Part shown: positions 11,501 through 57,556 of the stretch, piece after piece
Position numbering within the stretch: the first letter of the stretch is position 1
Layout: each line of letters starts with the position of its first letter
NCBI GenBank assembly: GCA_964019135.1
Contig: OZ025261.1
Location: 36,508,820 to 36,572,819 of the forward strand
DNA length: 64,000 bases
Reading direction: 5' to 3'
Source: Arenicola marina
Taxonomy: Eukaryota; Annelida; Polychaeta; Arenicolidae
Notes under the pieces: model-generated
What the model was told of the DNA's origin: nothing
Database searches by the model: none
What the model saw: only the letters and a program-made list of their open reading frames with translations
Program-made: the position numbers and the translations under genes

Positions 11501-11579
11501 GGTGTATGGTGTATCCTGGTGTTCCCTGGTGTGTGGTGTATCCTGGTATTCCCTGGTGCATGGTGTATCCTGGCGTTCT
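2534..11579. repeat. 27-bp minisatellite, array B, with higher-order repeats
   Basis: About 335 units of the same 27-bp repeat as arrays A and C, over 9 kb. Marker variants such as GGTATATCCTGG recur at about 3,648, 4,080, 5,402, 6,310, 7,067, 8,065 and 8,972. Their spacings of about 432, 908, 757 and 907 bp show multi-unit blocks that were themselves duplicated (432 and 756 bp are 16 and 28 units). A segment after 7,067 recurs after 8,972, a shift of about 1.9 kb. The array is open in several frames for hundreds of codons, which is a by-product of the unit length. Confidence 0.95.
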
Positions 11580-13779: not shown

Positions 13780-15294
13780 TTAACGCCGCCAGTTACTCAT
13801 CCGTAGCCACTTCCCCAAGTCTTCCCCCGACAAGCATTCGCCGCCATCTTGCCACCAACCCTTGAGATCAAACCCGGACCGGAAGCGATAGGTCTGATCG
13901 TTCATTATCTCACACAAGCGACAGAAGCCGCGGGGCCGCGTCCAGCCAAGGCCCCGGATGTACCAATCTGACCTCCAGCGGAAATACTTGAGGTACTCGT
14001 CGTCATTGCGCGACAGGTATCTAATGTGTTTGGCGAGTTGCCGGGGGCTATCGAAGTCTCGAATGTTGATGTACGAGTGGGATGGTAGGCTCTGGGAGTA
14101 GTTTCCGCCGCCCAGAACGATGGGTACCACGCCGTGAGTCAGCGGGCGAAACAGCTTCTCCGTCATGTAATCACGACATACGCTGTTCTCGAAAGATAAA
14201 TAAAATTTGTACTCCTCGTAAATTTTGGGGAAGCATGAATCAGCGTGAACTCTACCAGAGCATTCGTACGTCCCACACGCCCCGTATATATCGACAGGGA
14301 CGTATTTAGACAACTCTTGGACGTAATCCATCCGTCGACTATGACCGCGGCAATTGCTTACAACCCACGCGATGAGCTTGGTCTTTTTCTGCAGGAGTTG
14401 CCTCAGCGATCCCGCGAGATCCCTGCGGATAGATCCAGACGCCGGCAACGCCTCTGCCACGCCGTGCGGGATCCAGATATCAGAATCTCGGCGGTAGGTC
14501 ATGGTGAGGTTAAATATCCCGCCGTACTCGGACAAGTTTCTGGATGCGGTGAAGATCTGGAGCGGTGTCTCGAATAGGAAGAAGACGTATATCTGATCCG
14601 GACGTGCTCTCGTCGGGATCGTTTGCAAGTTGCACCCCGGGACGAAGTGGAAGAGGACGGCGTCCGCCTCCCAGAACCGGGATTTGTCGCTCGTCGTCTC
14701 GCATCCCGATACGGGGCATTTGTGACGCTCAAAAGGCGCTTGACCGATGCCAAAGGTGAAATCCTCGGCGCCGAAGAAAGTATTCCAGTAGAGTATGAGC
14801 TTTGTGTATTTTGTTGTCCCGGCGTTCGCTTCGTCAATAGTTCTATCCCGTGTCCTATCCGTCGCCGTTGATCCTTCTGCAGTCACCGTGGTGGCTTCTT
14901 TATAATCTATTACTAAGTTATCACCTTTTCGTAAGATTTTTGACGATTGTTTAATGTCTGACCTTCCAGATTTATGTACATTGTGGCGATGCTTTTTCTG
15001 TTTCTTGTTCGTTTTCGATTCGATCTTGTTCAAGTGGCTTTGTTCATCCGCATGTGCTATAGCCGATAGTTCCTGTGATACATTCTCCATATAGGGCTCG
15101 CGATCTGTTGCTGTACCAACCGCCCCGGGCCACTCCGACAGGAAGACATGCTGACGAGCTTCCAGTCGTGCCGAAAACACTTCCAGCCCAACTACCACGA
15201 CGACACAAACGCCGAACAACCAATGCTGGGGAAGCAGCAGCCACAACCTGTGTCTGTGACGGCTGTCTTGTCCAGCCGCCTCCACCAGCTCCAT
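13780..15294 (-). CDS. Alpha-1,3-fucosyltransferase (GT10), copy 1
   Basis: A 504-residue, single-exon type II Golgi enzyme of glycosyltransferase family 10, expected to move fucose from GDP-fucose onto GlcNAc-containing glycans. A short cytosolic tail is followed by a signal anchor (about 18-41, with VCVVVVVGLEV), a lysine-rich lumenal stem to about 163, the acceptor-side domain (about 164-280), and the GDP-fucose-binding domain (about 303-445). The latter carries the family motif YLSFENSVCRDYMTEKLF (365-382) and then GVVPIVLGGGNYS and the S-Y-I-N-I-R-D-F-D-S-P block. N-glycosylation sequons lie near 71, 253, 262 and 398. The frame stays open 13 codons upstream, but I chose MELVEA because copy 2 has a TAG directly before the same ATG. 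Acceptor specificity cannot be read from sequence. Confidence 0.93.
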   Translation of the reverse strand: MELVEAAGQDSRHRHRLWLLLPQHWLFGVCVVVVVGLEVFSARLEARQHVFLSEWPGAVGTATDREPYMENVSQELSAIAHADEQSHLNKIESKTNKKQKKHRHNVHKSGRSDIKQSSKILRKGDNLVIDYKEATTVTAEGSTATDRTRDRTIDEANAGTTKYTKLILYWNTFFGAEDFTFGIGQAPFERHKCPVSGCETTSDKSRFWEADAVLFHFVPGCNLQTIPTRARPDQIYVFFLFETPLQIFTASRNLSEYGGIFNLTMTYRRDSDIWIPHGVAEALPASGSIRRDLAGSLRQLLQKKTKLIAWVVSNCRGHSRRMDYVQELSKYVPVDIYGACGTYECSGRVHADSCFPKIYEEYKFYLSFENSVCRDYMTEKLFRPLTHGVVPIVLGGGNYSQSLPSHSYINIRDFDSPRQLAKHIRYLSRNDDEYLKYFRWRSDWYIRGLGWTRPRGFCRLCEIMNDQTYRFRSGFDLKGWWQDGGECLSGEDLGKWLRMSNWRR

Positions 15295-15530
15295 GTGGTC
15301 AGAATGGGGCAGAACACCCTGAGACACCACCATGTGTATGTGCGGACTGATGTGATGCTAAAGCGAACTTTAAACAAAGCGCAAAGACCACGAAAAAAAG
15401 CTTTATTGATCAGGCCGCAAATCATGACATTAAAGGTCTCCTTGTGATGGGCGTGGTGAATGACAGCGTGTTGCAGCGCTTGCACTGAGATTCCGTCAGT
15501 GAAATATCGATATTTCATGCATTACTAATT
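15295..15530 (-). promoter_or_regulatory. Conserved 5' flank of fucosyltransferase copy 1
   Basis: The roughly 230 bases upstream of the start are conserved in all three gene copies (28,921-29,150 and, inverted, 45,336-45,567), including CGATATTTCACTGACGGAAT-like and AAGGAGACCTTTAATGTCAT segments. Conservation in the inverted, more diverged copy suggests 5' UTR or promoter, but shared descent alone could also explain it. No clear TATA box was found. Confidence 0.4.
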
Positions 15531-20070: not shown

Positions 20071-20365
20071 TTTATGCAAAACAGTTATGACGTTTTAATC
20101 ACCGACCGCCGTTTTGTCTAATTTCCGATTTATTGTTGATTTTGATCGATTTATTCAAGTAGGAAACCGTACCATCTGTATGTCATATCGCGACAATAGG
20201 AATTAAAGGTCAAGGAAGAGAGGAGCCATGCCTCAGAGAGCAATTATGTAAGTGGGATTCACACACATTCAACAAGAGAGCGCGCTACCTACCAAACCAC
20301 GGGATGAGTCACGAATAACGTAAACCTACAGTTTTCATGTTAATCGGATTGCAATGTATCCTCTT
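20071..20365. repeat. Left flank of segmental duplication, copy 2
   Basis: Near-identical to 1-296, starting at TTTATGCAAAACAG. The change from unique to duplicated sequence just before 20,071 marks the left junction of copy 2 as far as this window shows. Confidence 0.85.
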
Positions 20366-23300
20366 GTATCCTGGTGTTCCTTGGTGTATGGTGTATCCTG
20401 GCGTTCCCTGGTGTATGGTGTATCCTGGTGTCCCCTGGTGTATGGTGTATCCTGGGGTTCTCGGGTGCATGGTGTATACTGGCGTTCCCTGGTGTATGGT
20501 GTATCCTGGCGTTCCCTGGTGTATGGTGTATCCTGGTGTTCCCTGGTGTATGGTGTATCCTGGCGTTCCCTGGTGTATGGTGTATCCTGGTGTCCCCTGG
20601 TGTATGGTGTATTCTGGTGTTCCCTGGTGTATGGTGTATCCTGGCGTTCCCTGGTGTATGGTGTATCCTGACGTTCCCTGGTGTATGGTGTATCCTGGCG
20701 TTCCCTGGTGTATGGTGCATCCTGGCGTTCCCCGGTGTATGGTGTATCCTGGTGTTCAGTGGTGTATGATGTATCCTGGTGTTCACTGGTGCATAGTGTA
20801 TCCTGGCGTTCCCTGGTGTATGGTGTATCCTGGCGTTCCCTGGTGTATGGTGTATCCTGGCGTTCCCCGGTGCATGGTGTATCCTGGTGTTCCCTGGTGT
20901 TCCCTGGTGTATGATGTATCCAGGTGTTCCCTGGTGTATGGTGTATCCTGGCGTTCCCTGATGTATAGTGTATTCTGGCGTTCCCTGGTGTATGGTGTAT
21001 CCTGGTGTTCCCCGGTGTATGATGTATCCTGGCGTTCCCTGGTGTATGGTGTATCCTGGCGTTCCCCGGTGCATGGTGTATCCTGGTGTTCCCTGGTGTT
21101 CCCTGGTGTATGATGTATCCTGGTGTTCCCTGGTGTATGGTGTATCCTGGCGTTCCCTGGTGTATGGTGTATCCTGGTGTTCCCTTGTGTATGGTGTATC
21201 CGAGCGTTCCCCGGTGTATGGTGTATCCTGGTGTTCCCTGGTGCATGGTGTATCCTGGCGTTCCCCGGTGTATGGTGTGTCCTGGTGTATCCTGGCGTTC
21301 CCTGGTGTATGGTGTATCCTGGTATTCCCTGGTGTATGGTGTATCCTGGCGTTCCCTGGTGTATGGTGTATCCTGGTATTCCCTGGTGTTTGGTGTATCC
21401 TAGCGTTCCCTGGTGTATGGTGTATCCTGGTGTTCCCTGGTGTATGGTGTATCCTGGTGTTCCCTGGTGTATGGTGTATCCTGGTGTTCCCTGGTGTATA
21501 GTGCATCCTGGTGTTCCCTGGTGTATGGTGTATGGTGTATCCTGGCGTTCCCTGGTGTATGGTGTATTCTGGCGTTCCCTGGTGTATGGTGTATCCAGGT
21601 GTTCCCTGGTGTATGGTGTATCCTGGCGTTCCCTGGTGTATAGTGTATTCTGGCGTTCCCTGGTGTATGGTGTATCCTGGTGTTCCCCGGTGTATGATGT
21701 ATCCTGGTGTTCCCTGGTGTATGGTGTATCCTGGTGTTCCCTGGTGTGTGGTGTATCCTGGTGTATCCTGGTGTTCCCTGGTGTATGGTGTATACTGGCG
21801 TTCCCTGGTGTATGGTGTATCCTGGTGTTCCCTGGTGTATGGTGTATCCTGTCGTTCCCTGGTGTATGGTGTATCCTGGTGTTCCCTGGTGTATGGTGTA
21901 TCCTGGTGTTCCCTGGTGTATGGTGTATCCTGGCGTTCCCTGGTGTATGGTGTATCCTGGCGTTCCCTGGTGAATGGTGTATCCTGGCGTTCCCTGGGGT
22001 ATGGTGTATCCTGGTGTTCCCTGGTGTATGGCGTATCCTGTCGTTCCCTGGTGTATGGTGTATCCTGGTGTTCCCTGGTGCATGGTGTATCCTGGTGTTC
22101 CGTGGTGTATGGTGTATCCTGTCGTTCCCTGGTGTATGGTGTATCCTGGCGTTCCCTGGTGTATTGTGTATCCTGGCGTTCCCTGGTGTATGGTGTAACC
22201 TGGCGTTCCCTGGTGTATGGTGTATCCCGGTGTTCCCTGGTGTATGGTGTATCCTGGCGTTCCCTGGTGTATGGTGTAGCCTGGTGTTCCCTGGTGTATG
22301 GTGTGTCCTGGTGTTCCCTGGTGTTCCCTGGTGTATGATGTATCCTGGTGTTCCCTGGTGTATGGTGTATCCTGGCGTTCCCTGGTGTATGGTGTAGCCT
22401 GGTGTTCCCTGGTGTATGGTGTGTCCTGGTGTTCCCTGGTGTTCCCTGGTGTATGATGTATCCTGGTGTTCCCTGGTGTATGGTGTATCCTGGTGTTCCC
22501 TGGTGTTCCCTGGTGTATGGTGTATCCTGGTGTTCACTGGTGTATGGTGTATCCTGGCGTTCCCTGGTGTATGGTGTATCCTGTCGTTCCCCGGTGTATG
22601 GTGTATCCTGGTGTTCCCTGGGGTATGGTGTATCCTGGTGTTCCCTGGTGTATGGCGTATCCTGTCGTTCCCTGGTGTATGGTGTATCCTGGTGTTCCCT
22701 GGTGTATGGTGTATCCTGGTGTTCCCTGGTGTATGGTGTATCCTGTCGTTCCCCGGTGTATGGTGTATCCTGGTGTTCCCTGGTGTATGGTGTATCCTGG
22801 TGTTCCCTGGTGTATGGTGTATCCTGGCGTTCCCTGGTCTATGGTGTATCCTGGCGTTCCCTGGTGTATAGTGTATTCTGGCGTTCCCTGGTGTATGGTG
22901 TATCCTGGTGTTCCCCGGTGTATGATGTATCCTGGTGTTCCCTGGTGTATGGTGTATCCTGGTGTTCCCTGGTGTGTGGTGTATCCTGGTGTATCCTGGT
23001 GTTCCCTGGTGTATGGTGTATACTGGCGTTCCCTGGTGTATGGTGTATCCTGGTGTTCCCTGGTGTATGGTGTATCCTGTCGTTCCCTGGTGTATGGTGT
23101 ATCCTGGTGTTCCCTGGTGTATGGTGTATCCTGGTGTTCCCTGGTGTATGGTGTATCCTGGCGTTCCCTGGTGTATGGTGTATCCTGGCGTTCCCTGGTG
23201 AATGGTGTATCCTGGCGTTCCCTGGGGTATGGTGTATCCTGGTGTTCCCTGGTGTATGGCGTATCCTGTCGTTCCCTGGTGTATGGTGTATCCTGGTGTT

Positions 23301-26300
23301 CCCTGGTGCATGGTGTATCCTGGTGTTCCGTGGTGTATGGTGTATCCTGTCGTTCCCTGGTGTATGGTGTATCCTGGCGTTCCTTGGTGTATTGTGTATT
23401 CTGGCGTTCCCTGGTGTATGGTGTAACCTGGCGTTCCCTGGTGTATGGTGTATCCCGGTGTTCCCTGGTGTATGGTGTATCCTGGCGTTCCCTGGTGTAT
23501 GGTGTAGCCTGGTGTTCCCTGGTGTATGGTGTGTCCTGGTGTTCCCTGGTGTTCCCTGGTGTATGATGTATCCTGGTGTTCCCTGGTGTATGGTGTATCC
23601 TGGCGTTCCCTGGTGTATGGTGTAGCCTGGTGTTCCCTGGTGTATGGTGTGTCCTGGTGTTCCCTGGTGTTCCCTGGTGTATGATGTATCCTGGTGTTCC
23701 CTGGTGTATGGTGTATCCTGGTGTTCCCTGGTGTTCCCTGGTGTATGGTGTATCCTGGTGTTCACTGGTGTATGGTGTATCCTGGCGTTCCCTGGTGTAT
23801 GGTGTATCCTGGCGTTCCCTGGTGTATGGTGTATCCTGGTGTTCCCTGGGGTATGGTGTATCCTGGTGTTCCCTGGTGTATGGCGTATCCTGTCGTTCCC
23901 TGGTGTATGGTGTATCCTGGTGTTCCCTGGTGTATGGTGTATCCTGGTGTTCCCTGGTGTATGGTGTATCCTGTCGTTCCCCGGTGTATGGTGTATCCTG
24001 GTGTTCCCTGGTGTATGGTGTATCCTGGTGTTCCCTGGTGTATGGTGTATCCTGGCGTTCCCTGGTCTATGGTGTATCCTGGCGTTCCCTGGTGTATGGT
24101 GTATCCTGGTGTTCCCTGGTGTATGGTGTATCCTGGCGTTCCCTGGTGTATGGTGTATCCTGGCGTTCCCTGGTGTATGGTGTATCCTGGTGTTCCCTGG
24201 GGTATGGTGTATCCTGGTGTTCCCTGGTGTATGGCGTATCCTGTCGTTCCCTGGTGTATGGTGTATCCTGGTGTTCCCTGGTGTATGGTGTATCCTGGTG
24301 CTCCCTGGTGTATGGTGTATCCTGTCGTTCCCTGGTGTATGGTGTATCCTGGCCTTCCCTGGTGTATGGTGTATCCTGGCGTTCCCTGGTGTATGGTGTA
24401 ACCTGGAGTTCCCTGGTGTATGGTGTATCCTGGTGTTCCCTTGTGTATGGTGTATCCTGGCGTTCCCTGGTGCATGGTGTATCCTGGCGATCCCTGGTTA
24501 TGGTGTATCCTGGCGTTACCTGGTGTATGGTGTATCCTGGTATTCCCTGGTGTTCCCTGGTGTCTGGTGTATCCTGGTGTTCCCTGGGGTTCCCTGGTGT
24601 ATGGTGTATCCTGGTGTTCCCTAGTTTATGGTGTATCCTGGTGTTCCCTGGTGTATGGTGTAACCTGGTGTTCCCTGGTGTATGGTGTATCCTGGTGTTC
24701 CCTGGTGTATGGTGTGTACTGGTGTTCCCTGGTGTATGGTGTATCCTGGCGTTCCCTGGTTTATGGTGTATCCTAGTGTTCCCTGGTGTATGGTGTATCC
24801 TGGCGTTCCATGGTGTATGGTGTATCCTGGTGCTCCCTGGTGTATGGTGTATCCTGGTGTTCCCTGGCTTATGGTGTAGCCTGGCGTTCCCTGGTGTATG
24901 GTGTATCCTGGCGTTCCCTTGTGTATGGTGTACCCTGGTGTTCTCTGGAATATGGTGTATCCTGGCGTTACTTGGTGTATGGTGTATCCTGGTGTTCCCT
25001 GGTGCATGGTGTATCCTGGTGTTCCCTACTGTTCCCTGGTGTATGGTGTATCCTGGCGTTGCCTGGTGTATGGTGTATCCTTGCGTTCCCTAGTGTATGG
25101 TGTATCCTGGTGTTCCCTGGCGTATGACGTATCCTGGCGTTCCCTGGTGTATGGTGTATCCTGGCGTTCCCTGGTGTGTGGTGTGTCCTGGTGTTCCCTG
25201 GTGTATGGTGTATCCTGGTGTTCCCTGGTGTATGGTGTATCCTGGTGTTCCCTGGTGTATGGTGTATCCTGGTGTTCCCTGGTGTATGGTGTATCCTGTC
25301 GTTCCCCGGTGTATGGTGTATCCTGGTGTTCCCTGGTGTATGGTGTATCCTGGCGTTACCTGGTGTATGGTGTATCCTGGTATTCCCTGGTGTTCCCTGG
25401 TGTCTGGTGTATCCTGGTGTTCCCTGGTGTTCCCTGGTGTATGGTGTATCCTGGTGTTCCCTGGTGTATGGTGTATCCTGGTGTTCCCTGGAGTGTGGTG
25501 TGTCCTGGTGTTCCCTGGTGTATGGTGTATCCTGGTGTTCCCTGGTGTATGGTGTATCCTGGTGTTCCCTGGAGTGTGGTGTGTCCTGGTGTTCCCTGGT
25601 GCATGGTGTATCCTGGTGTTCCCTGCTGTTCCCTGGTGTATGGTGTATCCTGGCGTTGCCTGGTGTATGGTGTATCCTTGCGTTCCCTAGTGTATGGTGT
25701 ATCCTGGTGTTCCCTGGCGTATGACGTATCCTGGCGTTCCCTGGTGTATGGTGTATCCTGGTGTTCCCTGGTGTATGGTGTATCCTGGTGTTCCCTGGAG
25801 TGTGGTGTGTCCTGGTGTTCCCTGGTGTATGGTGTATCCTGGTGTTCCCTGGTGTATGGTGTGTCCTGGTGTTCCCTGGTGTATGGTGTATCCTGGTGTT
25901 CCCTGGTGTATAGTGTATCCTGGTGTCCCCTGGTGTATAGTGTATCCTGGTGCTCCCTGGTGTATGGTGTGTCCTGGTGTTCCCTAGTGTATGGTGTATC
26001 CTGGCGTTCCCTGGTGTATGGTGTATTCTGGTGTTCCCTGGTGTATGGTGTATCCTGGTATTCTCTGGTGTATGGTGTATCCTGGTGTTCCCTGGTGTAT
26101 GGTGTATCCTGGTGTTCCCTGGTGTATGGTGTATCCTGGTGTTCCCTGGTGTATGGTGTATCCTGGTGTTCCCTGGTGTATGGTGTATGGTGTATCCTGG
26201 TGTTGCCTGGTGTACGGTGTATCCTGGTGTTCCCTGGTGTATGGTGTATCCTGGCGTTCCCTGGTGTATGGTGTATCCTGGTGTTCCCTGGTGTATGGTG

Positions 26301-26446
26301 TATCCTGGTGTTCCCTGGTGTATGGTGTATCCTAGTGTTCCCTGGTGTATGGTGTATCCTGGTGTATGGTGTATCCTGGTGTTCCCTGGTGTATGGTGTA
26401 TCCTGGCGTTCCCTGGTGTATGGTGTATCTTGGTGTTCTCTGGTGT
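20366..26446. repeat. 27-bp minisatellite, array C, with a 1,228-bp higher-order repeat
   Basis: About 225 units of the same repeat as arrays A and B. A block containing rare variants (TGTATACTGGCG, GTGTATTGTGTA, GTGGTGTATCC) is duplicated with an exact offset of 1,228 bp, for example 21,707 against 22,935 and 22,348 against 23,576; the offset is not a whole number of units because shortened units are included. The array lacks the TIR element found between A and B. Confidence 0.95.
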
Positions 26447-27405: not shown

Positions 27406-28920
27406 TTAACGCCGCCAGTTACTCATCCGTAGCCACTCCCCCAAGTCCTCTCCCGACAAGCATTCGCCGCCATCTTGCCACCAACGCTTGAGATCAAACC
27501 CGGACCGGAAGCGATAGGCGGGATTGTTCATTATCTCACACAACCGACAGAAGCCGCGGGGCCGCGTCCAGCCAAGGCCCCGGATGTACGAAACTGACCT
27601 CCAGCGAAAATACTTGAGGTACTCGTCGTCATTGCGCGACAGGTATCTAATGTGTTTGGCGAGTTGCCGGGGGCTATCGAAGTCTCGAATGTTGATGTAC
27701 GAGTGGGATGGTATGCTCTGGGAGTAGTTTCCGCCGCCCAGAACGATGGGTACCACGCCGTGAGTCAGCGGGCGAAACAGCTTCGCCGTCATGTAATCAC
27801 GACATACGCTGTTCTCGAAAGATAAATAAAATTTGTACTCCTCGTGAATTTCGGGGAAGCATGAATCAGCGTGAACTCTACCAGAGCATTCGTACGTCCC
27901 ACACGCCCCGTATATATCGACAGGGACGTATTTAGACAACTCTTGGACGTAATCCATCCGTCGACTATGACCGCGGCAATTGCTTACAACCCACGCAATG
28001 AGCTTGGTCTTTTTCTGCAGCAGTTGCCTCAGCGATCCGGTGAGATCCCTGCGGATAGATCCAGATGCCGGCAACGCCTCCGCCACGCCGTGCGGGATCC
28101 AGATATCAGAATCTCGGCGGTAGGTCATGGTGAGGTTAAATATCCCGCCGTACTCGGACAAGTTTCTGGATGCGGTGAAGATCTGGAGTGGGGTCTCGAA
28201 TAGGAAGAAGACGTATATCTGATCCGGACGGGCTCTCGTCGGGATCGTTTGCAAGTTGCACCCTGGGATGAAGTGGAAGAGGACGGCGTCCGCCTCCCAG
28301 AACCGGGATTTGTCGCTCGTCGTCTCACATCCCGATACGGGGCATTTGTGACGCTCAAAAGGCGCTTGGCCGATGCCAAATGTGAAATCCTCGGCGCCGA
28401 AGAAAGTATTCCAGCAAAGTATGAGCTTTGTGCGTTTTGTTGTCACGGCGTTCGCTTCGTCAATAGTTTTATCCTGTGTCCTATCCGTCGCCGTTGATCT
28501 TTCTGCAGTCACTGTACTGGCTTCTTTATAATCTATTACTAAATTATCAACTTTTCGTAATATTTTTGGCGATTGTTTAATGTCTGACCTTCCAGATATA
28601 TGTACATTGTGGCGATGCTTCTTCTGTTTCTTGTTCGTTTTTGATTCGATCTTGTTCAAGTGGCTTTGTTCATCCGCATGTGCTATAGCCGATAGTTCCT
28701 GTGATGCATTCTCCACATAGGGCTCGCGATCTGTTGCTGTACCAACCGCCCCGGGCCACTCCGACAGGAAGACATGCTGACGAGCTTCCTGTCGTGCCGA
28801 AAACACTTCCAGCCCAACTACCACGACGACACAAACGCCAAACAACCAATGCTGGGGCAGCAGCAGCCACAGCCAGTGTCTGTGACGGCTGTCTTGTCCA
28901 GCCGCCTCCACCAGCTCCAT
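27406..28920 (-). CDS. Alpha-1,3-fucosyltransferase (GT10), copy 2
   Basis: A 504-residue single-exon paralogue of the genes at 13,780 and 45,568, with the same plan: signal anchor near 18-41, basic stem, GT10 acceptor domain and GDP-fucose-binding domain. The signature YLSFENSVCRDYMTAKLF has Ala where the other copies, and most family members, have Glu (T-E-K to T-A-K, residue 379). Other changes are Val-Ser for Asp-Trp after F-R-W-R-S and Asn-Ala-Ser in place of Asn-Val-Ser at the first sequon. A TAG codon directly before the ATG fixes the start. The frame is intact. The Glu-to-Ala change lies in the most conserved motif and might reduce activity; that is inference. Confidence 0.92.
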   Translation of the reverse strand: MELVEAAGQDSRHRHWLWLLLPQHWLFGVCVVVVVGLEVFSARQEARQHVFLSEWPGAVGTATDREPYVENASQELSAIAHADEQSHLNKIESKTNKKQKKHRHNVHISGRSDIKQSPKILRKVDNLVIDYKEASTVTAERSTATDRTQDKTIDEANAVTTKRTKLILCWNTFFGAEDFTFGIGQAPFERHKCPVSGCETTSDKSRFWEADAVLFHFIPGCNLQTIPTRARPDQIYVFFLFETPLQIFTASRNLSEYGGIFNLTMTYRRDSDIWIPHGVAEALPASGSIRRDLTGSLRQLLQKKTKLIAWVVSNCRGHSRRMDYVQELSKYVPVDIYGACGTYECSGRVHADSCFPEIHEEYKFYLSFENSVCRDYMTAKLFRPLTHGVVPIVLGGGNYSQSIPSHSYINIRDFDSPRQLAKHIRYLSRNDDEYLKYFRWRSVSYIRGLGWTRPRGFCRLCEIMNNPAYRFRSGFDLKRWWQDGGECLSGEDLGEWLRMSNWRR

Positions 28921-32085: not shown

Positions 32086-34632
32086 CTACAGTAGATAGTA
32101 ATAGCACCCCACCAACATGGCGAGAACAAAGGACGTTTGCTGCGGACCTATTCTAGATGCGCTTCCGAGTACTACATTGAAGAGATTTTCGACTTCCGTT
32201 TGTTCTTCACCGTAACTGTATCCGAGGACGCGAGCTCGCTCCAGAGCCCAGGAGCTGTCTTTCCCCTGCGACTGAGCAGCTCCCAGTATTGCCAAGACAC
32301 CTGAACAGAGACAAAGGGGTAAATCATGTGATTCTGCACCCATGAGGTACGCGTACAGGTCACTGAATCAGATGGGCAGACCATGTATAAACGATAATGA
32401 ACACACGTGGGCTTGGACTACATTTCATGCCTATTTGAGAAATGATATATTTAATACGCGACTGGCATCCAGATTTATCTTTAGACTACTTGAGGTTACC
32501 CCAAATAAATTTTGGAGCTTCTTTTTATGAAAACAATAATTATATATTAGAATTATATAATTATATTTTTCAGCGGGTACTTACTTGCTCTCTTTCCAGT
32601 AGCAGAATGTATCAGGACTGGTCCTTGGGCCGCCAGAGAAAGGATGTCCTCTTTGTATGTTTCCCACATACTTTCTGTGTATGTGTGTTCCGCACCTAAA
32701 CAAGAGAACACCTCGGTACTTTAACCCCATGCAGAAGAACAATCTATATTCAGCATCATATATATATCGTGGTCAACAAACGCGACGCGTGCCAGTTGAA
32801 ATTTACAACCGCAATTATGTTTGCGTCACGTCATGCTTCAATGTTCTACGCAATGTAACTATGGCATTGACTATGGAAGGGGCCACAGGGCGGTTTGGGT
32901 CAGATTACGCGATTTTAGCCGCCTTCTGATTTAATGCAATTGTACTAGTTAAAACGACCATCAATTCGTAATAATAAGTGATATCTGGGTAGTGTTGTCG
33001 CAAGTATCTACCAATAGGTATGGGGTAAAGGGAGACGTCGGGGTAGTGTTGTAGCACGTACTCACCAGTAGGCATATGATAATATAGAATGTCTGGGTAG
33101 TGGTGCAGCATGTACTCACCAATAGGCATGTGATAATAGGAGATGTCTGGGTAGTGTTGTAGCATGTACTCACCAACAGACATGTGATAATATGGGATGT
33201 CTGGGTAGTGTTGTAACAGGTACTCACCGGCAGGCAAGTGATAATATGGGATGTCTGGGTAGTGTTGTAGCACGTACTCACCAACAGACATGTGATAATA
33301 TGGGATGTCTGGGTAGTGTTGTAACAGGTACTCACCGGCAGGCAAGTGATAATATGGGATGTCTGGGTAGTGTTGCAGCATGTACTCACCAACAGACATG
33401 TGATAATATGGGATGTCTGGGTAGTGTGGTCGCTTGTACTCACCAATCGACATATGATAATATGGGATGTCTGGGTAGTGGTGCAGCATGTACTCACCAA
33501 TAGGTATGTGATAATATGGGATGTCTGGGTAGTGTTGCAGCATGTACTCACCAATAGGCATATGATAATATGGGATGTCTGGGTAGTGTTGCAGCATGTA
33601 CTCCCTCTCCATGGCCTCGCTGTACCCAATCGAGTCCCCAAACTCCAATCTGTTGGATGCCTCGTAGTTCTCAGAGCTCGTGTTCGATATGAAATAGCGA
33701 GTCCTCTCGGGGTCGATTCTCGTGGCCTCCAGGCGGTCGCGACTCTGTCGGCCACCAAGGTCGTAAGTCCCGGTTCTGTCCCTGATGTTCAGCAAGGCCA
33801 CTTCCTCTTGGGATGGCACATCGCTGGGCGGACTGGTGTTCCCGCGCCTCACGTTGACCAGGGCCACGAACCCCATCGACGATAAATCGTGAAACTGGAA
33901 CGTTTGATTCCGGAAGAGAGTCCCCGAAACAATCCAGTTTCCGCTCACGACATTGACGGGCCAGTACTTGTGGTACCACTGCTGGATGGCCAACACCGGC
34001 AAAGGAATATCCGAGAACGAAACGTCCGAAATCTGCTGCAGAGTTTCTTGCAAACCCTCGAATGCGAAGTAATCGTAACCCAAATCAAACCCGTATTTCA
34101 CGGCGTCTCGTACAGTGAGGTCCGGTTCAAAGTCCATATTATCGCCGGCGGCCGTGACGTTGGCGAAGTGCGCCATGAGATGGAAGGTAGCGGAGAACCC
34201 GACGCTGCAGGTGTGGAGGATCGGCCTCGGGAGAGTCCGGACAAGTCCGTGAAGGCGGCGGATCGGCTCCAGCGTGGTCCACAGAGACACTTCGTCCTCA
34301 CCCATGACCCAGGCAAACGCCAGTCCCGCCACGTCCTCTACGATCACTCGCGCCTCGGCGGTGGTCGGCTGGTAGCCCTGTCCGGGGTCTGTGACGTCAC
34401 CGCCCGGTATGACGTAGTAGAAGTTGGAGATGATGCTCTTGAAGCCAACGTCGGCCGCGTACTTCAGCTGGCGTACAGTGGGACGACCGGAAGTGTAGAA
34501 GTCATCCGTGATCCGGTGCGCCCACCATAGCTTGTCGCCAGGGGTAACGGCGGCGGTTGCCAGGGTAACCAAAGTAATGAACCCCGCGAGGGCTGTGGAT
34601 ATTGTTAGTGTATGGAGAGCTCCACAAGCCAT
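32086..34632 (-). CDS. Secreted protein with two phosphatase-like (DUF442/BLH-type) domains, three exons
   Basis: Exon model on the minus strand: 34,632-33,552 (or a later donor), 32,695-32,585, 32,300-32,086. Exon 1 ends in G|GTGAGT (phase 1); exon 2 starts after CTTGTTTAG and ends GCAA|GTAAGT; exon 3 starts after CTCTGTTCAG and ends in TAG. All phases join, giving 468 residues with the first donor. Residues 1-28 are a signal peptide. Domain 1 (about 33-158) has TSGRPT and LHTCSVGFSA around Cys142; domain 2 starts near 234 (VSGTLFRNQTF) and its active-site loop, LIHSATGKRAS, spans exons 2-3. The C-terminus ends in a hydrophobic FVLAMLVGCYYYLL, compatible with a GPI anchor. Neither active site is complete. 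ATG 34,632 is chosen because the frame upstream has no ATG. Function unknown; catalysis is doubtful. Confidence 0.8.
32951..33606 (-). repeat. 54-bp minisatellite carrying ten tandem 5' splice sites
   Basis: Twelve units of exactly 54 bp (18 codons), encoding variants of EYMLQHYPDIPYYHMPIG in the exon 1 frame with no stop. Each unit boundary reads G|GTGAGTAC on the minus strand. Intact donors follow exon bases 33,552, 33,498, 33,444, 33,390, 33,336, 33,282, 33,228, 33,174, 33,120 and 33,066; the next unit (33,012) has GTAGAT and the first boundary (33,606) lacks GT. Use of donor n adds 18(n-1) residues without changing phase. If no donor is used the frame runs on to a stop at 32,905. Confidence 0.9.
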
Positions 34633-34639
34633 CTCTGTC

Positions 34640-34745
34640 ACACTTCAAAGTCAAAGTGACCTTACAAGCTTTGCAGCGACTTGTATCGGTCAGTATCTTC
34701 GGATGTATGTCTCTAAATATCGTGTAATTATTATTTGGTCAGCCA
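34640..34745 (-). promoter_or_regulatory. Immediate upstream region of the phosphatase-like gene
   Basis: The bases just upstream of ATG 34,632 contain no TATA box I can recognise. The start has CAGAG before the ATG. This is recorded as the presumed 5' UTR only by position. Confidence 0.3.
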
Positions 34746-38429: not shown

Positions 38430-40690
38430 GCTTGTCAGCTGTAATTGCGGCCGTCGGCAACACTGTCAGGCCATCTCAAATATCGGGTATTCAGCGAGCT
38501 GTAGGGTGCCAAGCTTACTGGAAAACGGGAATAGCTACTCTGACCCCGCCTCAAAGGCAAAACTATTTAGCGATCATTTTGCCGCGAATTCTACCCTTCC
38601 TCCCCTTCGGCAGGGATTCACACTTCCAACCCTGACTCTTAAGACATCCGCTCGACTATCCACTATTGAGTTTACTCCGTCGAAAGCGGACAACGTCAGC
38701 AACAGAATGCTAAAGGAAACCGCTGAAGTTGTGTCAGAGTCGTTGTCATATATATTTAATCGAAGCATGAGAGAAAATGTATTCCCGTCTGCATGGAAAG
38801 AAGCCAATATAACTCCAGTCTACAAAAAAGTTAGACAAACAATGTATTATTAACTATCGGCCCATATCGCTCTTGTCTAACATCGGCAAAGTTATGGAAA
38901 AAATTGTTTGTGAACAGTTATATGAATATTGTGTCGCCAAAAACCTTCTAACGTGGCGCAATGCAGGATTCAAAAGGAAAGATTCAACAACCAGTCAGAT
39001 GATATATATAACACATACGATCTACGAATCTCTCGAACAAGGGAGAGAATCCTTAATGGTGTTTCTTGATGTGTCGAAGGCATTCGACAAAGTGTACCAC
39101 GATGGTCTACTGCATAAGCTCCAATCCATTGGCATTGAGCGTGAGCTACTTCTGTGGCTAGGTAATTATCTCAGTGATAGAAGGCAGCGAGTTGTTATTG
39201 ACGGGTCTGTGTCTCAGTGGATGTATACAAATGCAGGCGTACCGCAAGGCTCCATCTTAGGACCCATCCTTTTTCTTGTATTTGTAAACGATATCGTTGA
39301 CGAACTGGAATGTGAAGTCTTTCTTTTCGCGGACGACACATCGCTATTTTTTGTGTTAGACTGTAGTCTTAATGTACAATCGGTTAATCGCGATTTACAA
39401 CGCCTCTCACAGTGGGCTGATCAATGGTGCGTAAGTTTCAGTAGTAGTAAGACAGAGTACATGGTTTTTAGTAAGAAGCTCCAGTCGCATACTTCAATAG
39501 ATCTTTACCTGGGAAATTCCAAACTCAGACGAGTCAATACCCACTGCCATTTAGGTTTTACTTTATCAAGTAATATGACTTGGGAAGCGCATACGCGTAA
39601 TCTAATCAAGAAAGCCGGTAAATCTGTTTCCTTGTTAAGACGACTCCCAAGAAACATTGGTAGACAAACCAAGCTATCTGCATATAAAAGCTATATACGA
39701 CCGTCTCTTGAATATGGAACTGCAGTGTATCACGGTAATCTAACTAAAATCCAGACAGAGAGCCTTGAAAGGGTACAACGAAAAGCCTTACTAGCCATCA
39801 GCGGGGCCTAAAGTTGCACGTCACACAGCAAGCTATTAGAGGAGGTTGGTGTGGAGAAACTTGCACTTAGACGCAATTATTTAGCCTGTGCATGTTGTAC
39901 AAAATGGTCAATGGTGTCTGTCAACCGTACTTGGCGTCCTTACTTCCCCAAACCAATATTCCCTTCGAAACTTAAATGACATCAGAGTGCCAAAAGTAAC
40001 AAAAAAATACTCCTTGAACTCATTTCTTTGGCACACGGTTCGCTAACATCAGGCACGCGTCTTCCCTCCCCGAGTTCAAAACCAAATTTAAATCTGTTTC
40101 CTTCTCTCAGAATCGTGATTTGTACAACCTACAGTGTGGCGCTGAATCGATCTACCACGCTCGGCTTCGACTCGGCCTAAGCGCTCTCAATGGCCACCGT
40201 AAGAAGTATGGTTTTATCAGCGACAACCGCTGCCCTAAGTGCAATTTAAAGCCCGAAGACAATGCTCACTTCTTACTCCAATGTTCAGCTTACCGATCGT
40301 CCCGTGAACTTCTCAAGACGGACATTTCTTTCCTTACAGACCATGGTATTAACATTGACCCATCCTCAGGCCCCGATCGGAAATCCCTCTGCGAAGTATT
40401 ACTATTCGGCTGTTCTAATATTACCTTCGACCTAAACAACGTATTATTCAACGCGGTTCATAAATATATCGAACGTACTGGTAGGTTTGTTATGTTCGAA
40501 TGATTTTACTAAATTGCTTTTGTTATGAATTTGTTACGTCATGTCGCGCTTCTTTATCGATACTTTGTATATATTATACCGACACATTATGTTTGTAAAC
40601 AATTATTCAATTATCACCACGACTAATGTATGAACGTTTGAGGTGAGCATTTACATGTGAATTCGATGTTGCAAACCTCAGAAAATAAAT
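38430..40690 (+). mobile_element. CR1/Jockey-group non-LTR retrotransposon, 5'-truncated and decayed
   Basis: A plus-strand element from just upstream of the RT domain through the C-terminal region and a 3' UTR of about 190 bp ending near AAAATAAATTATG. Frameshifts and a stop split its ORF into at least four parts. The group is inferred from RT motifs (DVSKAFDKV, GVPQGSILGPILF, FADDTS) and the C-terminal HARLRLGLSALNGHRKKYGF with a C-x2-C-x8-H-x4-C knuckle. No target duplication was identified. Confidence 0.85.
38431..40503 (+). pseudogene. Reverse transcriptase ORF2 relic
   Basis: Segment 1 (to about 38,835) encodes the RT entry region (NRMLKETAEVV, FPSAWKEANITPVYKK). A frameshift near 38,835 leads to segment 2 (about 38,848-39,811) with RPISLLSNIGKVMEKIVCEQ, the palm aspartate in FLDVSKAFDKV, VPQGSILGP and FADDTSLF, and the thumb. 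A TAA follows at 39,809-39,811, then a degraded stretch with shifts. A last open part (40,120-40,503) encodes the C-terminal knuckle CPKCNLKPEDNAHFLLQC. The YXDD-type catalytic pair is present, but the ORF as a whole is broken. Confidence 0.85.
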
Positions 40691-41611: not shown

Positions 41612-42114
41612 ATGGGTTTACATGCATGCATAGCAAACCCTGTAAAATCGGACATTTGGGAAGCAAAATTTATTGAAGTGTTTGGACGGCCCACTGACAG
41701 GAAAATGTTGATAGGTAACATATATGGAGCTCCACGTGACATAAATAAAAATGATTCGACGTTTTCTCAAGAATTAACTGAGGTTATACTTTCATTTGTG
41801 ATAACTACACCACATAGAGAATGCATTCTAGCAGGTGATTTTAACATAGACAATTAAAAGATTTGTGAAAAATCAGCAATTAGCGATTACTTTGATACCA
41901 TTGTAGCCTTCTAAAAATCACCTTGCCGACTAGAATGTCGCGTAATAGGGGTACGTTGATTGATAATTTTCTATGTAAGTTAACATCCAGCTCATTAAAT
42001 ACAACAGCTGGCATTATATTGAAGGCTATCTCAGACCATCTGCCGTATTACTTATATTTAGACATTGATGTGCGACGCTCAAACAAACCGCCCACATATA
42101 TTGTGGGCGTTTGA
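41612..42114 (+). pseudogene. Retrotransposon endonuclease fragment
   Basis: Two frames carry late motifs of an apurinic-type endonuclease from a non-LTR retrotransposon: first LIGNIYGAPRDI and LAGDFNID (to about 41,857), then, after a stop and a frameshift, RGTLIDNFLCKL and ISDHLPYYLYLDI (to 42,114). G-D-F-N and S-D-H-L are the usual catalytic-core motifs. The N-terminal part and the RT are missing. It may come from the same class of element as 38,430-40,690. Confidence 0.75.
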
Positions 42115-44677
42115 TGAGCCACAGCCACATTACACAATATGAGCCACAGCCACATTGCACAATATGAGCCAGAGCCACATTGCACAATATGAGCCACAGC
42201 CACATTGCTCAATATGAGCCAGTCACATTGCTCAATATAAGCAGTAGTCACATTGCCTATTATGAGCCATAGTCATATTGCTCAATAGGAGTCCTAGTCA
42301 CATTGCTCATTATGAGCCATAGTCACATTGCTCAATAGGAGTCCTGGTCACATTGCTCATTATGAGCCATAGTCATATTGCTCAATAGGAGTCCTAGTCA
42401 CATTGCTCATTATGAGCCATAGTCACATTGCTCAATAGGAGTCCTGGTCACATTGCTCATTATGAGCCATAGTCATATTGCTTAATACGAGATATAGTCA
42501 CATTGCTCAATAGGAGTCCTAGTCACATTGCTCATTATGAGCCATAGTCACATTGCTCAATAGGAGTCCTAGTCACATTGCTCAATATGAGCCAGTCACA
42601 TTGCTCAATATAAGCAATAGTCACAGTGCTCAATAGGAGTCCTAGTCACATTGCTCATTATGAGCCATAGTCATATTGCTTAATACGAGCTATAGTCACA
42701 TTGCTCATTATGAGCCATAGTCATATTGCTTAATACGAGCTATAGTCACATTGCTCATTATGAGCCATAGTCATATTGCTTAATACGAGCTATAGTCACA
42801 TTGCTCATTATGAGCCATAGTCATATTGCTTAATACGAGCTATAGTCACATTGCTCATTATGAGCCATAGTCATATTGCTTAATACGAGCTATAGCCACA
42901 TTGCTCATTATGAGCCATAGTCATATTGCTTAATACGAGCTATAGTCACATTGCTCATTATGAGCCATAGTCATATTGCTTAATACGAGCTATAGTCACA
43001 TTGCTCATTATGAGCCATAGTCATATTGCTTAATACGAGATATAGTCACATTGCTCAATAGGAGTCCTAGTCACATTGCTCATTATGAGCCATAGTCACA
43101 TTGCTCAATAGGAGTCCTAGTCACATTGCTCAATATGAGCCAGTCACATTGCTCAATATAAGCAATAGTCACATTGCTCAATAGGAGTCCTAGTCACATT
43201 GCTCATTATGAGCCATAGTCATATTGCTTAATACGAGCTATAGTCACATTGCTCAATAGGAGTCCTAGTCACATTGCTCATTATGAGCCATAGTCATATT
43301 GCTTAATACGAGCTATAGTCACATTGCTCAATAGGAGTCCTAGTCACATTGCTCATTATGAGCCATAGTCATATTGCTTAATACGAGCTATAGTCACATT
43401 GCTCATTATGAGCCATAGTCATATTGCTTAATACGAGCTATAGTCACATTGCTCAATAGGAGTCCTAGTCACATTGCTCATTTTGAGCCATAGTCATATT
43501 GTCCACTATGAGCCATAGTCATATTGCTTAATACGAGCTATAGTCACATTGCTCAATAGGAGCAATAGTCACATTGCTCATTTTGAGCCATAGTCATATT
43601 GTCCACTATGAGCCATAGTGATATTGCTTAATACGAGTCATAGTCACATTGCTCAACATGAGATATAATTCATTAGCTCAATGTTAGTCATAGTCACATT
43701 GCTCAATATGAGCCACAGCCACAATGCTCATTATGAGTCCTAGTCACATTGCTTAATATGATATATAATCCATTACCTCAGTATTAGTCAGTCACATTGC
43801 TCAATGTAAGCCACAGCCACATTGCTCAACATGAGCCACAGTCACATTACACAATATGAGCCATAGTCACATTTCATAGTACGAGCCATAGTGACATTGT
43901 TCATTATGGGCCATAGTCATATTGCTTAATCGATTAGTCGCAAGGAACCGCCGTTAGAGAAATTGTAGACACCTATTTCCCTTACTTGTGAAATATATTT
44001 TGTTCATGAAAGGATGATGACATTACAATAGTCACATTACACAATATGAGCCATAGCCACATTGCTCAGTGTGAGCCACAGTCACATTGCACAATATGAG
44101 CTGTAGTCACATTGCCCATTATGACCCATAGTCACATTGCCCAACATAAGTCCTGGTCACATTGCTCATTATGAGCCATAGTCCTATTGCTTAATACGAG
44201 TCATAGTCACATTGTTCCACATGATATATAGTCCATTAGCTCAGTGTAAGTCATAGTCACATTGCTCAATATGAGCCACAGCCACAATGCTCTAGATGAG
44301 CCACAGCCACATTGCCCATTATGAGCCATAGTCATATGGCTTAAGATGAGTCGTAGTCACATTGCTTAATACGAGCTATAGTCACATTTGTCATTATGAG
44401 CCGTACTCACATTGCCCATTATGAGTCAATCACATTGCACAATATGAGTCCTAATCACATTGCCCATTATGATCTATAGTCACATTGCTTAATACGAGTC
44501 CTAGTCGTCACATTACTCAATATGAACCATAATCACATTGCTCAACATGAGCCTTAGTCACATTGCTCAACATGAGATATAATCCATTAGCTCAACATGA
44601 GATATAATCCATTAGCTGAACATTAGGCATAGCCACATTGCTCAATATGAGCCATAGTCACATTGTTTAGCATGAGT
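42112..44677. repeat. 25-bp minisatellite, array 2 (inverted orientation)
   Basis: About 100 units with core TAGTCACATTGCTCATTATG plus AGCCA, the reverse complement of the family in arrays 1 and 3. A 50-bp dimer (one GAGCCATAGTCATATTGCTT unit plus one TACGAGCTATAGTCACATTG unit) is amplified at 42,650-43,040, and a 75-bp trimer type with AATAGGAGTCC also recurs. At 43,927-44,030 the array is broken by about 100 bp of other sequence beginning with the 20-bp direct repeat. Confidence 0.93.
43934..43953. repeat. 20-bp direct repeat, right copy
   Basis: Second copy of TTAGTCGCAAGGAACCGCCG, identical to 41,490-41,509. Confidence 0.6.
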
Positions 44678-45335: not shown

Positions 45336-45567
45336 ATGAAGTATCGATATTTCACTGACATACGGAATCGCTGTTCAAGCGCTGCAACACGTCAAGTCAT
45401 TCAGCTGACCCATCACAAGGAGACCTTTAATGTCATCACTTGCGGCCTGATCGATAGAGCTTTTTTTCCTGGGCTTTGCGCCTTGTTTAAAGTTTGCTTC
45501 AGCGTCACATCAGTCCTCTCATGTCATGCGCACGGACATGATGGGTATTATGCCCCATTCTGACCAC
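45336..45567 (+). promoter_or_regulatory. Conserved 5' flank of fucosyltransferase copy 3
   Basis: Inverted and diverged counterpart of 15,295-15,530 and 28,921-29,150. Retained pieces include AGTATCGATATTTCACTGAC and CACAAGGAGACCTTTAATGT. An earlier in-frame ATG at 45,526 exists only because this flank stays open. Confidence 0.4.
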
Positions 45568-47085
45568 ATGGAGCTGGTGGAGGCGGCTGGACAAGACAGC
45601 CGTCACAGACACTGGTTGTTGCTGCTGCTGCCCCAGCATTGGTTGTTCGGCGTTTGTGTCGTCGTGGTAGTTGGGCTGGAAGTGTTTTTGGCACGACAGG
45701 AAGCTCGTCAGCATGTCTTCCTGTCGGAGTGGCCCGTGGCGGTTGGTACCGGAACGGATCGCGAGCCCTATATGGAGAATGTATCACAACTCTCGGGTAC
45801 GGCACAGTTATCTAAACATGCGGATGGCCATTTAAACACAATCGGATCGAAGACGAACAAGTCACAAAAGAAGCAGCGCCACAATGTACATAAATCTGGA
45901 AGGTCAGACGAAAAGAAATCTTCAAAAATATTACGAAAAGGTGATAATTTAGTAATAGATTATAAAGAAGCCACCACAGTGACTGCAGAAGGATCAACGG
46001 CGACGAATAGGACAGAGGATAAAACTATTGACGAAGCGAACGCCGTGACAACAAAACGCACAAAGCTCATACTTTACTGGAATACTTTCTTCGGCGCCGA
46101 GGATTTCACCTTTGGCATCGGCCAAGCGCCTTTTGAGCGTCACAAATGCCCCGTATCCGGATGCGAGATGACGAGCGACAAATCTCGCTTCTGGGAGGCG
46201 GACGCCGTCCTCTTTCACTTCGTCCCGGGGTGCGACTTGGAAACGATCCCGACGAGAGCGCGTCCGGATCAGATATACGTCTTCTTCCTATTGGAGACCC
46301 CGCTTCATGTCTTCACCGCATCCAGAAACTTGTCCGAGTACGGCGGGATATTTAACCTCACCATGACCTACCGCCGAGATTCTGATATCTGGATCCCGCA
46401 CGGCGTGGCAGAGGCGTTGCCGGCGTCTGGATCTATCCGCAGGGATCTCGCAGGATCGCTGAGGCAACTCCTGCAGAAAAAGACCAAGCTCATCGCGCGG
46501 GTCGTAAGCAATTGCCGCGGTCATAGTCGCCGGATGGATTACGTCTACGAGTTGTCTAAATACGTCCCTGTCGATATATACGGGGCGTGTGGGACGTACG
46601 AATGCTCTGGTAGAGTTCACGCTGATTCATGCTTCCCCAAAATTGACGAGGAGTACAAATTTTATTTATCTTTCGAGAACAGCGTATGTCGTGATTACAT
46701 GACGGAGAAGCTGTTTCACCCGCTGACTCACGGCGTGGTACCCATCGTTCTGGGCGGCGGAAACTACTCCCAGAGCATACCATCCCACTCGTACATCAAC
46801 ATTCGAGACTTCGATAGCCCCCGGCAACTCGCCAAACACATTAGATACCTGTCGCGCAATGACGACGAGTACCTCAAGTATTTCCGCTGGAAGTCAGATT
46901 GGTACATCCGGGGCCTTGGCTGGACGCGGCCCCGCGGCTTCTGTCGGTTGTGTGAGATAATGAACGATCCCGCCTATCGCTTCCGGTCCGGGTTTGATCT
47001 CAAGCGTTGGTGGCAAGACGGCGGCGAATGCTTGTCGGGGGAGGACTTGGGGGAGTGGCTACGGATGAGTAACTGGCGGCGTTAA
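45568..47085 (+). CDS. Alpha-1,3-fucosyltransferase (GT10), copy 3
   Basis: A 505-residue single-exon paralogue on the opposite strand from copies 1 and 2. The signal anchor (VCVVVVVGLEVFLARQEARQ region), basic stem, acceptor domain and GDP-fucose-binding domain are all present; the family signature reads YLSFENSVCRDYMTEKLF. The stem carries small indels (SQLSGTAQLSKHADGHLN) and more substitutions than copies 1 and 2 show between themselves, so copy 3 split off earlier. Changes in the catalytic part include LLETPLHVF for LFETPLQIF and H-P-L-T for R-P-L-T. The start is aligned to MELVEA of the other copies although the frame is open 14 codons further. Intact and probably functional. Confidence 0.92.
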   Translation: MELVEAAGQDSRHRHWLLLLLPQHWLFGVCVVVVVGLEVFLARQEARQHVFLSEWPVAVGTGTDREPYMENVSQLSGTAQLSKHADGHLNTIGSKTNKSQKKQRHNVHKSGRSDEKKSSKILRKGDNLVIDYKEATTVTAEGSTATNRTEDKTIDEANAVTTKRTKLILYWNTFFGAEDFTFGIGQAPFERHKCPVSGCEMTSDKSRFWEADAVLFHFVPGCDLETIPTRARPDQIYVFFLLETPLHVFTASRNLSEYGGIFNLTMTYRRDSDIWIPHGVAEALPASGSIRRDLAGSLRQLLQKKTKLIARVVSNCRGHSRRMDYVYELSKYVPVDIYGACGTYECSGRVHADSCFPKIDEEYKFYLSFENSVCRDYMTEKLFHPLTHGVVPIVLGGGNYSQSIPSHSYINIRDFDSPRQLAKHIRYLSRNDDEYLKYFRWKSDWYIRGLGWTRPRGFCRLCEIMNDPAYRFRSGFDLKRWWQDGGECLSGEDLGEWLRMSNWRR

Positions 47086-51565: not shown

Positions 51566-51774
51566 CCCTGTTACCAGGTTATAGATACGGCTTTCGCTTC
51601 TTTTCCATACAAGTTCTTTGATTATACCCGTCCAATGAATGACGTCAACGCTGTTAACACAGGCTCTTTGTTAAAAACACGTGCACGCGATAAACGCATG
51701 TTTAATGACAACTGTTTTCCTCAGTCAATCGTGACAAAATATTTATAACTATCATAACGGCACAAAACGGGGTT

Positions 51775-56513: not shown

Positions 56514-56744
56514 CTGTTAACGTCTTATTCGCGGAGCTCAGCTGTCGAGACCACGGCAGCTACTGAAGCACTCTACACCCCAGGGGCTCTCGGCCATAAG
56601 GCCTCTCTTCTATCTCTGCTGTCGGTGTTGGTGGGCGCATCTTACAATGGTAGAACAAACGGGTTACTACCAGGGAGTGCCGGGGCCAAGCTCAGTGACC
56701 CGACGGATCAGATAGACGAATAATCAGAAAAAATAGACAGGTTT
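56514..56744. repeat. Unique 230-bp segment duplicated across the gap, left copy
   Basis: Starts TTCTGCTGTTAACGTCTTAT and is repeated with minimal change at 57,351-57,556. The last 25 bases before the Ns (AATAATCAGAAAAAATAGAC) differ from the right copy. Confidence 0.85.
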
Positions 56745-56944
56745 NNNNNNNNNNNNNNNNNNNNNNNNNNNNNNNNNNNNNNNNNNNNNNNNNNNNNNNN
56801 NNNNNNNNNNNNNNNNNNNNNNNNNNNNNNNNNNNNNNNNNNNNNNNNNNNNNNNNNNNNNNNNNNNNNNNNNNNNNNNNNNNNNNNNNNNNNNNNNNNN
56901 NNNNNNNNNNNNNNNNNNNNNNNNNNNNNNNNNNNNNNNNNNNN
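56745..56944. other. Assembly gap of 200 N
   Basis: Exactly 200 undetermined bases, a conventional placeholder length, so the true size is unknown. Confidence 0.99.
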
Positions 56945-57350: not shown

Positions 57351-57556
57351 TTCTGCTGTTAACGTCTTATTCGCGGAGCTCAGCTGTCGAGACCACGGCA
57401 GCTACTGAAGCACTCTACACCCCAGGGGCTCTCGGCCATAAGGCCTCTCTTCTATCTCTGCTGTCGGTGTTGGTGGGCGCATCTTACAATGGTAGAACAA
57501 ACGGGTTACTACCAGGGAGTGCCGGGGGCCAAGCTCAGTGACCCGACGGATCAGAT
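57351..57556. repeat. Unique 205-bp segment, right copy
   Basis: Second copy of 56,514-56,744, here passing directly into the inverted array. No coding evidence. Confidence 0.85.

Follow-up and report, generated by a model that had tools for sequence, protein, structure and literature searches.

An in-frame donor-site minisatellite at an exon end, probably spliced out mostly from its first copy

The minus strand of the window (the whole stretch of DNA analysed, 64 kb long) carries a three-exon gene whose first exon runs into a 54-bp minisatellite, and ten successive copies of the unit end in a 5' splice site (Table 1). We interpret the repeat as an exon-end ('mirage') minisatellite, a donor array that is probably, for the most part, spliced out from its first donor. 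Use of the first donor is suggested by sequence and by analogy: a stop codon interrupts unit 30 of the corresponding array in a sister gene, the arrays of two further paralogues (genes 3 and 4) permit the first donor only, neither the related protein of Owenia fusiformis nor gene 3 holds an insert, and comparable arrays have been described in amphioxus.

Tandem Repeats Finder reports the array independently (32,971-33,603, period 54, 11.7 copies, 85% matches, 1% indels), so it is not a product of chance. Each unit consists of 52 exon bases followed by GT, the tandem units thus holding both an exon end and a splice signal, as the preliminary description had supposed when it derived the unit from the end of exon 1 and the first bases of the intron; its 'twelve exact 54-bp units' are exact in length but not in sequence, since we counted 26 variant alleles in units 1-11. 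The ten G|GTGAGTAC boundaries that it had placed at 33,552 and then every 54 bp to 33,066 are right in both coordinates and arithmetic, and GGTGAGTAC occurs on the minus strand of the window at those ten donors and nowhere else. Three types of flank are found among them (TTG, CCG and CTG), for which the predicted U1 pairing is between -10.6 and -10.8 kcal/mol. All ten donors are in phase 1 and match the phase of exon 2, again as described: every join is in frame, and the predicted products, with exons 2 and 3 included, would run without a stop to 468, 486 and so on up to 630 residues. The weak eleventh boundary also joins exon 2 in frame, to give 648 residues, while the open frame obtained by reading through (~1.7 kb) spans all 12 units and reaches its stop at 32,905.

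Table 1. Features of the window gene, its relatives and other arrays in the genome (positions without a locus name are those of the window).
Feature	Location	Strand	Remarks
Exon 1, proposed ATG to first donor, first unit copy included	33552..34632	(-)	Open frame; Owenia homology; sister gene
Exon 2, 111 bp	32585..32695	(-)	After CTTGTTTAG; ends GCAA|GTAAGT; sister 94.9%; aligned with Owenia protein
Exon 3, 215 bp, to TAG stop	32086..32300	(-)	Hydrophobic C-terminus
Read-through or intron-retention frame, 578 aa from GTG at 34641	32905..34641	(-)	Open across the array into the intron
54-bp minisatellite, 12 units of 18 codons each	32956..33603	(-)	EYMLQHYPDIPYYHMPIG type; unit 12 degenerate
Ten tandem 5' splice sites, G|GTGAGTAC	33066..33552	(-)	Spacing 54 bp
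Last exon bases of the ten donors	33552, 33498, 33444, 33390, 33336, 33282, 33228, 33174, 33120, 33066	(-)	
Eleventh, weak boundary after unit 11, G|GTAGATAC (G|GTAGATA)	33005..33012	(-)	Predicted U1 pairing -5.0 kcal/mol
Segment overlapping the array end	32855..32976	(-)	Recurs inverted after the sister array (L009 8913-8791)
Sister array, 61 units of exactly 54 bp	L009 5440-8733 = G000 C14:36578259-36581552		Beyond the window end
Gene 3 array, 32-bp unit	L010 7117-8336		At exon 2 end
Gene 3 array, 101-bp unit	L016 6486-6997		At exon 4 end
Gene 4 array, 53-bp unit	L017 6692-7907		At the exon end homologous to that of the window gene
Array at aldehyde dehydrogenase exon 3' end, 39-bp unit	L077 1250-3086		In frame; Aldedh E 7e-8
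Array at lustrin-like cysteine-rich exon 3' end, 34-bp unit	L079 2060-2200		Few exon bases; Pfam 24.9, below the cut-off of 27
Long minisatellites in the window	295-11578, 20365-26446, 42114-44665, 51769-58045, 60167-63857		

In the annelid Owenia fusiformis a protein of 395 residues matches the 468-residue form with 38% identity over 383 aligned positions (219 bits, against 198 bits for the read-through frame), and the alignment crosses both the exon 1/2 and the exon 2/3 joins without an insert; the first array unit lies inside the exon homologous to the Owenia protein, on whose side the alignment shows a gap of 10 residues directly after the first join. Together with the sister gene, which repeats the same model, and with a gene 3 donor at the homologous position, this alignment bears out the three exons that had been proposed. 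Among the best 7,996 and 7,995 word-sharing candidates scored in protein searches with the window family, the Owenia protein was the sole relative. The product of exon 1, which has a hydrophobic N-terminus, appears from its sequence to be only a distant relative of BLH-phosphatase-like proteins; the window protein, compared with Pfam at E up to 1, gave no match and does not reach the Pfam cut-off for BLH_phosphatase (PF04273). The HCxxGxR loop, with its active-site Cys, is a phosphatase motif. At the position of the Cys-containing loop of some relatives, exon 2 encodes HSATGKR, with Ser in place of the active-site Cys, whereas gene 4 retains the Cys (HCRIGWR), and because of this difference and of the missing Pfam match the window protein looks like a catalytically dead relative. 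Solved structures yielded no more than two weak matches (best E 0.16), a structure model of the read-through protein was discarded for its mean pLDDT of 30, and the window gave no matches when scanned for Rfam families and tRNAs.

We examined the window's own assembly (867 Mb in 762 contigs), in which a sister gene lies just outside the window, head-to-head with the window gene and ~34 kb from it, start to start. The two exon 1 proteins are 92% identical over residues 1-361, exons 2 and 3 are conserved and placed at the same joins, and the 1407-bp spliced forms differ with a dN of 0.034 and a dS of 0.067 (dN/dS 0.51); the aligned block that begins at the end of intron 1, takes in exon 2 and covers most of intron 2 is ~78% identical. 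Copy number has changed in the manner of a minisatellite, with 12 units in the window gene and 61 in the sister. The sister array offers 60 donors, 59 of them GGTGAGTAC and one GGTAAGTAC; predicted U1 pairing is -10.5 kcal/mol for the sister donor GTAAGTAC and -2.6 kcal/mol for the joint after unit 61. Because unit 30 holds a TAG stop, donors 1-29 would give open products, and donors 30-60, as well as the 61st joint, truncated ones; the exons of the sister being otherwise intact, a stop half-way along the array therefore seems to be tolerated. A segment of ~125 bp that overlaps or lies 3' of each of these two arrays is in opposite orientation in the two genes (79% over 126 aligned positions), and may reflect either an inversion or a small mobile element.

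Two further paralogues were found, gene 3 beyond the sister, with five exons that are all open, and gene 4 on another contig, which has one in-frame TGA and may be a non-functional pseudogene. Gene 3 is 39% identical to the window protein and scores above the BLH_phosphatase (PF04273) cut-off (28.6 against 26.1). Its exon end homologous to the window array is present in a single copy with no insert, ...TYIHLPIG|GTAATTATAG (with a longer intron start, ...TYIHLPIG|GTAATTATAGA), and the predicted U1 pairing of this donor is -6.5 kcal/mol. When the splice sites of the four gene models were each scored against their own intron, five of the ten donors recurred there (9, 60, 37, 5 and 21 further copies), compared with one of the ten acceptors (2 copies). 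The last acceptor of gene 3 has two extra partial copies. Since the arrays of the window gene and of its sister go back to a single origin, we read those of the four-gene family as four independent ones, with units of 54, 32, 101 and 53 bp. The donors of genes 3 and 4 were scored by pattern and counted as productive when they were in frame and brought in no new stop, gene 4 keeping its own TGA; a single donor qualified in each array (1/38 for the 32-bp, 1/6 for the 101-bp and 1/19 for the 53-bp unit), and it was always the first. Judged by their sequence, these three arrays cannot feed an isoform ladder. Gene 3 being intact, its splicing, if the gene is expressed, must therefore at two exon ends pick the first donor out of many that are nearly identical.

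The anatomy of the unit suggests how such an array could have arisen. In the common ancestor of the two sister genes, a tandem duplication would have taken in the GT of the intron together with the 52 bases that close exon 1, each joint fusing that GT to the GAGTAC (Glu-Tyr codons) of the exon and so creating the strong donor GTGAGTAC. Where the last unit of the sister array ends, the bases that follow (GGT|TATAGA) look like the start of the gene 3 intron, a likeness that is suggestive, since it covers a few bases only. Possibly, instead, GTGAGTAC already stood at the start of the original intron, and the duplication was promoted by the six bases held in common. On the exon-end minisatellite reading, the array would then have grown and shrunk as minisatellites do, to 12 units in one gene and 61 in the other, and the first, intron-distal donor, which lies closest to the main part of exon 1, would be the one mostly used, yielding 468 residues while the remaining units leave with the intron. 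Since every copy ends in a complete donor and the first gives the ancestral protein, the rest of the array can be removed as intron, and growth would cost little because each copy is complete. As the unit is 54 bp long and free of stops, later donors would only add blocks of 18 residues, and minor longer isoforms made from them would be tolerated; the length of the unit and its lack of a stop are thus what makes the later donors harmless, and are no evidence of their use. Given the near-equal strength of the donors, position, timing or bound proteins must decide the choice among them, and SRSF1 is described as favouring intron-proximal and hnRNP A1 intron-distal 5' sites (as cited in PMC5585400).

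Variation among the units (1-11 in the window array, 1-60 in the sister array) gives no clear indication, at the level of sequence, of selection on the protein. Pairwise piN/piS is 0.43 in the window (codon bootstrap 0.20-0.91) and 0.28 in the sister (0.08-4.69); these low values made protein-level selection on the repeat a candidate, yet it was set aside because random redistribution of the observed mutation spectrum left the synonymous excess non-significant (9 against 7.0 expected in the window, P 0.24; 5 against 5.6 in the sister, P 0.70). Stops were not significantly depleted among the units either (0 seen against 0.80 expected in the window, P 0.43; 1 against 1.27 in the sister). The donor nonamer of the interior units shows 0 variant alleles where 3.3 are expected (P about 0.02 in each array), and almost as little variation is seen in another block of the unit, which leaves the conservation of the donor as such weakly supported.

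Should several of the ten donors be appreciably used, donor choice and repeat number would together produce a ladder of isoforms from 468 to 630 residues, which the preliminary description had put forward. Each of the ten joins keeps the frame and meets no stop, predicted U1 pairing is nearly equal across the donors and no donor sequence favours the first; the unchanged nonamer of the interior units would fit use of every donor, the piN/piS values below 1 leave room for protein constraint, and gene 4, one of the cases in which only the first donor works, may not be functional, given its in-frame TGA. Against this stand the other arrays of the family, which permit the first donor alone, the TAG in sister unit 30, the Owenia protein and gene 3, both of which lack an insert, and the non-significant protein-level constraint among the units; the insert would also fall beside what we take to be a core strand of the phosphatase fold. 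Published precedents point both ways: for human IFI6, use of two downstream repeat units has been reported, giving three mRNAs (PMC4526556), and human boundary repeats often yield both forms, 66% of the reported cases also having a transcript that keeps the repeat (PMC2812944), whereas the mirage minisatellites of amphioxus are reported not to disturb regular splicing (PMC3087553, PMC3902484). Weighing these points, we regard appreciable use of several donors as a possibility to be taken seriously but unlikely, while a minor in-frame ladder, of the kind reported for IFI6, is quite possible.

That the whole array is normally translated, either from a late donor (the tenth or eleventh) or through intron retention, into a Tyr/His-rich repeat protein strikes us as highly improbable. 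The frame is open over the 12 units to 32,905, the repeat peptide is regular and piN/piS lies below 1, but this openness follows from a single stop-free 54-bp unit (0.80 stops expected from the 26 variant alleles, none seen, P 0.43), the sister array contains a stop, the last boundaries are degenerate and retention would drop the conserved exons 2 and 3. It is scarcely credible that the gene is dying, or the repeat mis-assembled, and the donors without a role: the TGA in gene 4 and the Ser in place of the loop Cys in the window protein would fit decay, but the three exons are open in both the window gene and its sister, which have diverged with a dN/dS of 0.51 over 1407 bp, with ~78% identity in the aligned block spanning most of intron 2, and the two arrays differ in length and in unit variants, which argues against a simple assembly error.

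Beyond this family, donor-bearing arrays are recurrent and probably over-represented in the genome. Three AGGTRAGT motifs spaced 20-50 bp apart matched 20,273 times, against 6,519 for the pattern reversed, and one permuted pattern matched 4,409 times, its own reverse 10,305 times. The matches are clustered: among the ~100 listed for each pattern, those of the donor pattern fall into four arrays in the first 1.75 Mb of contig 1 and those of the permuted pattern into eight arrays within 24.3 Mb. The start could be read in two of the four donor-pattern arrays, at an aldehyde dehydrogenase and a lustrin-like gene, and both start at an exon end; for the third array the stretch examined lies wholly inside the repeat, and the locus of the fourth never leaves it. 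Such arrays are not general, because 20 kinase loci (74 kb, chosen regardless of repeats, mostly long exons) contained none, and the idea of mirages everywhere in the genome was dropped on that count; five of these loci are near-identical copies (L038-L042), and the sample is what remained of 30 loci once ten on small contigs, with TAA or TAG in their frames, had been set aside. Kinase frames with TAA and/or TAG codons were seen on contigs C232, C330, C443, C465, C497, C504, C609, C652 and C684, which may derive from a ciliate-like contaminant that reads TAA/TAG as amino acids. A frame-keeping unit turned out not to be remarkable: two of the six independent unit lengths are divisible by three (54 and 39, as opposed to 32, 101, 53 and 34), as expected by chance.

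Much of the window itself is filled by very long minisatellites with units of 17 to 81 bp. Between them lie three single-exon frames resembling family 10 fucosyltransferases, at 13780-15357 (-), 27406-28920 (-) and 45451-47085 (+), whose close similarity was judged by eye, Pfam having been run on the second only, and a frame at 38813-39811 (+) resembles, by eye, a reverse transcriptase (FADD-type motif).

How the spliceosome chooses among near-equal 5' splice sites is usually studied with few competing sites. The two sister genes, with 10 and 60 near-identical donors in front of near-identical exons 2 and 3, are natural material for this question, and in the arrays of their cousin genes only the first donor can be right; junction counts from these genes would show directly whether choice is first-come or prefers intron-proximal sites. 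It is a rather doubtful speculation that the genome repeatedly turns exon ends into minisatellites and that, wherever the unit is a multiple of three, the result is a protein of tunable length, its repeat region depending on which of 10 to 60 equal donors is chosen and the length of the array fixing the rate. If it were true, the gene pair would offer, in nature, a titration of 5' splice-site competition at two points. The case also illustrates a route by which the duplication of a splice site could give rise to a coding repeat. With an annelid protein as the sole relative found for the family, and no Branchiostoma name among the 120 listed of 557 hits to a fucosyltransferase of the window, most of them without a name, the host may lie outside the lancelets; mirages would then extend beyond that group.

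A close likeness in an unrelated gene comes from human IFI6 (6-16/G1P3), in which, as Turri, Cuin and Porter reportedly described in 1995, a minisatellite supplies multiple splice donors; its unit is said to be 12 bp, a multiple of three that keeps the frame. Here, too, minisatellite units supply alternative donors, and the 54-bp unit keeps the frame, with all ten isoforms open; the alternative donors of IFI6 are reported as used (PMC4526556), whereas those of the window gene are predicted from sequence. Minisatellites at exon-intron boundaries have also been reported in human segmental-duplication genes, with 27 intron modifications (PMC2812944), and resemble the present arrays in belonging to recent paralogues and in being kept or spliced out; they have units of ~30 bp and 4 repeats on average and are presented as forming novel introns, and they are not known to include arrays of tens of donors. 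Among annelids, intronic minisatellites are described in an earthworm metallothionein (PMC12783039), which is not known to contain donor arrays. The human cases make boundary minisatellites known outside lancelets; under the name 'mirage', literature searches listed lancelet papers only. The mirages of amphioxus (Adh3, the globins BflGb6 and BflGb9, and, in a later paper that adds the one and cites the other, PGBD5 and troponin C; PMC3087553, PMC3902484) are likewise tandem duplications of an exon-intron boundary, with many units carrying AG/GT signals, a repeat number that differs between haplotypes and an occurrence in several genes. They are reported on both the acceptor and the donor side (PMC3087553), the best described, in BflGb6, being an acceptor-side array and that in BflGb9 lying on the donor side. 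Regular splicing is reported as undisturbed in amphioxus, and for the present arrays it is predicted from sequence; the present arrays also differ in their 54-bp, stop-free units with every donor of the window gene in frame, and in size, with 12 and 61 units against the 3 and 6 reported for two BflGb6 haplotypes. With such precedents in amphioxus, IFI6 and human segmental duplications, and with two of six unit lengths being multiples of three, the earlier view that a minisatellite multiplying a donor in frame is unusual loses most of its force: the array belongs to a known kind, of which it is an unusually large and in-frame example.
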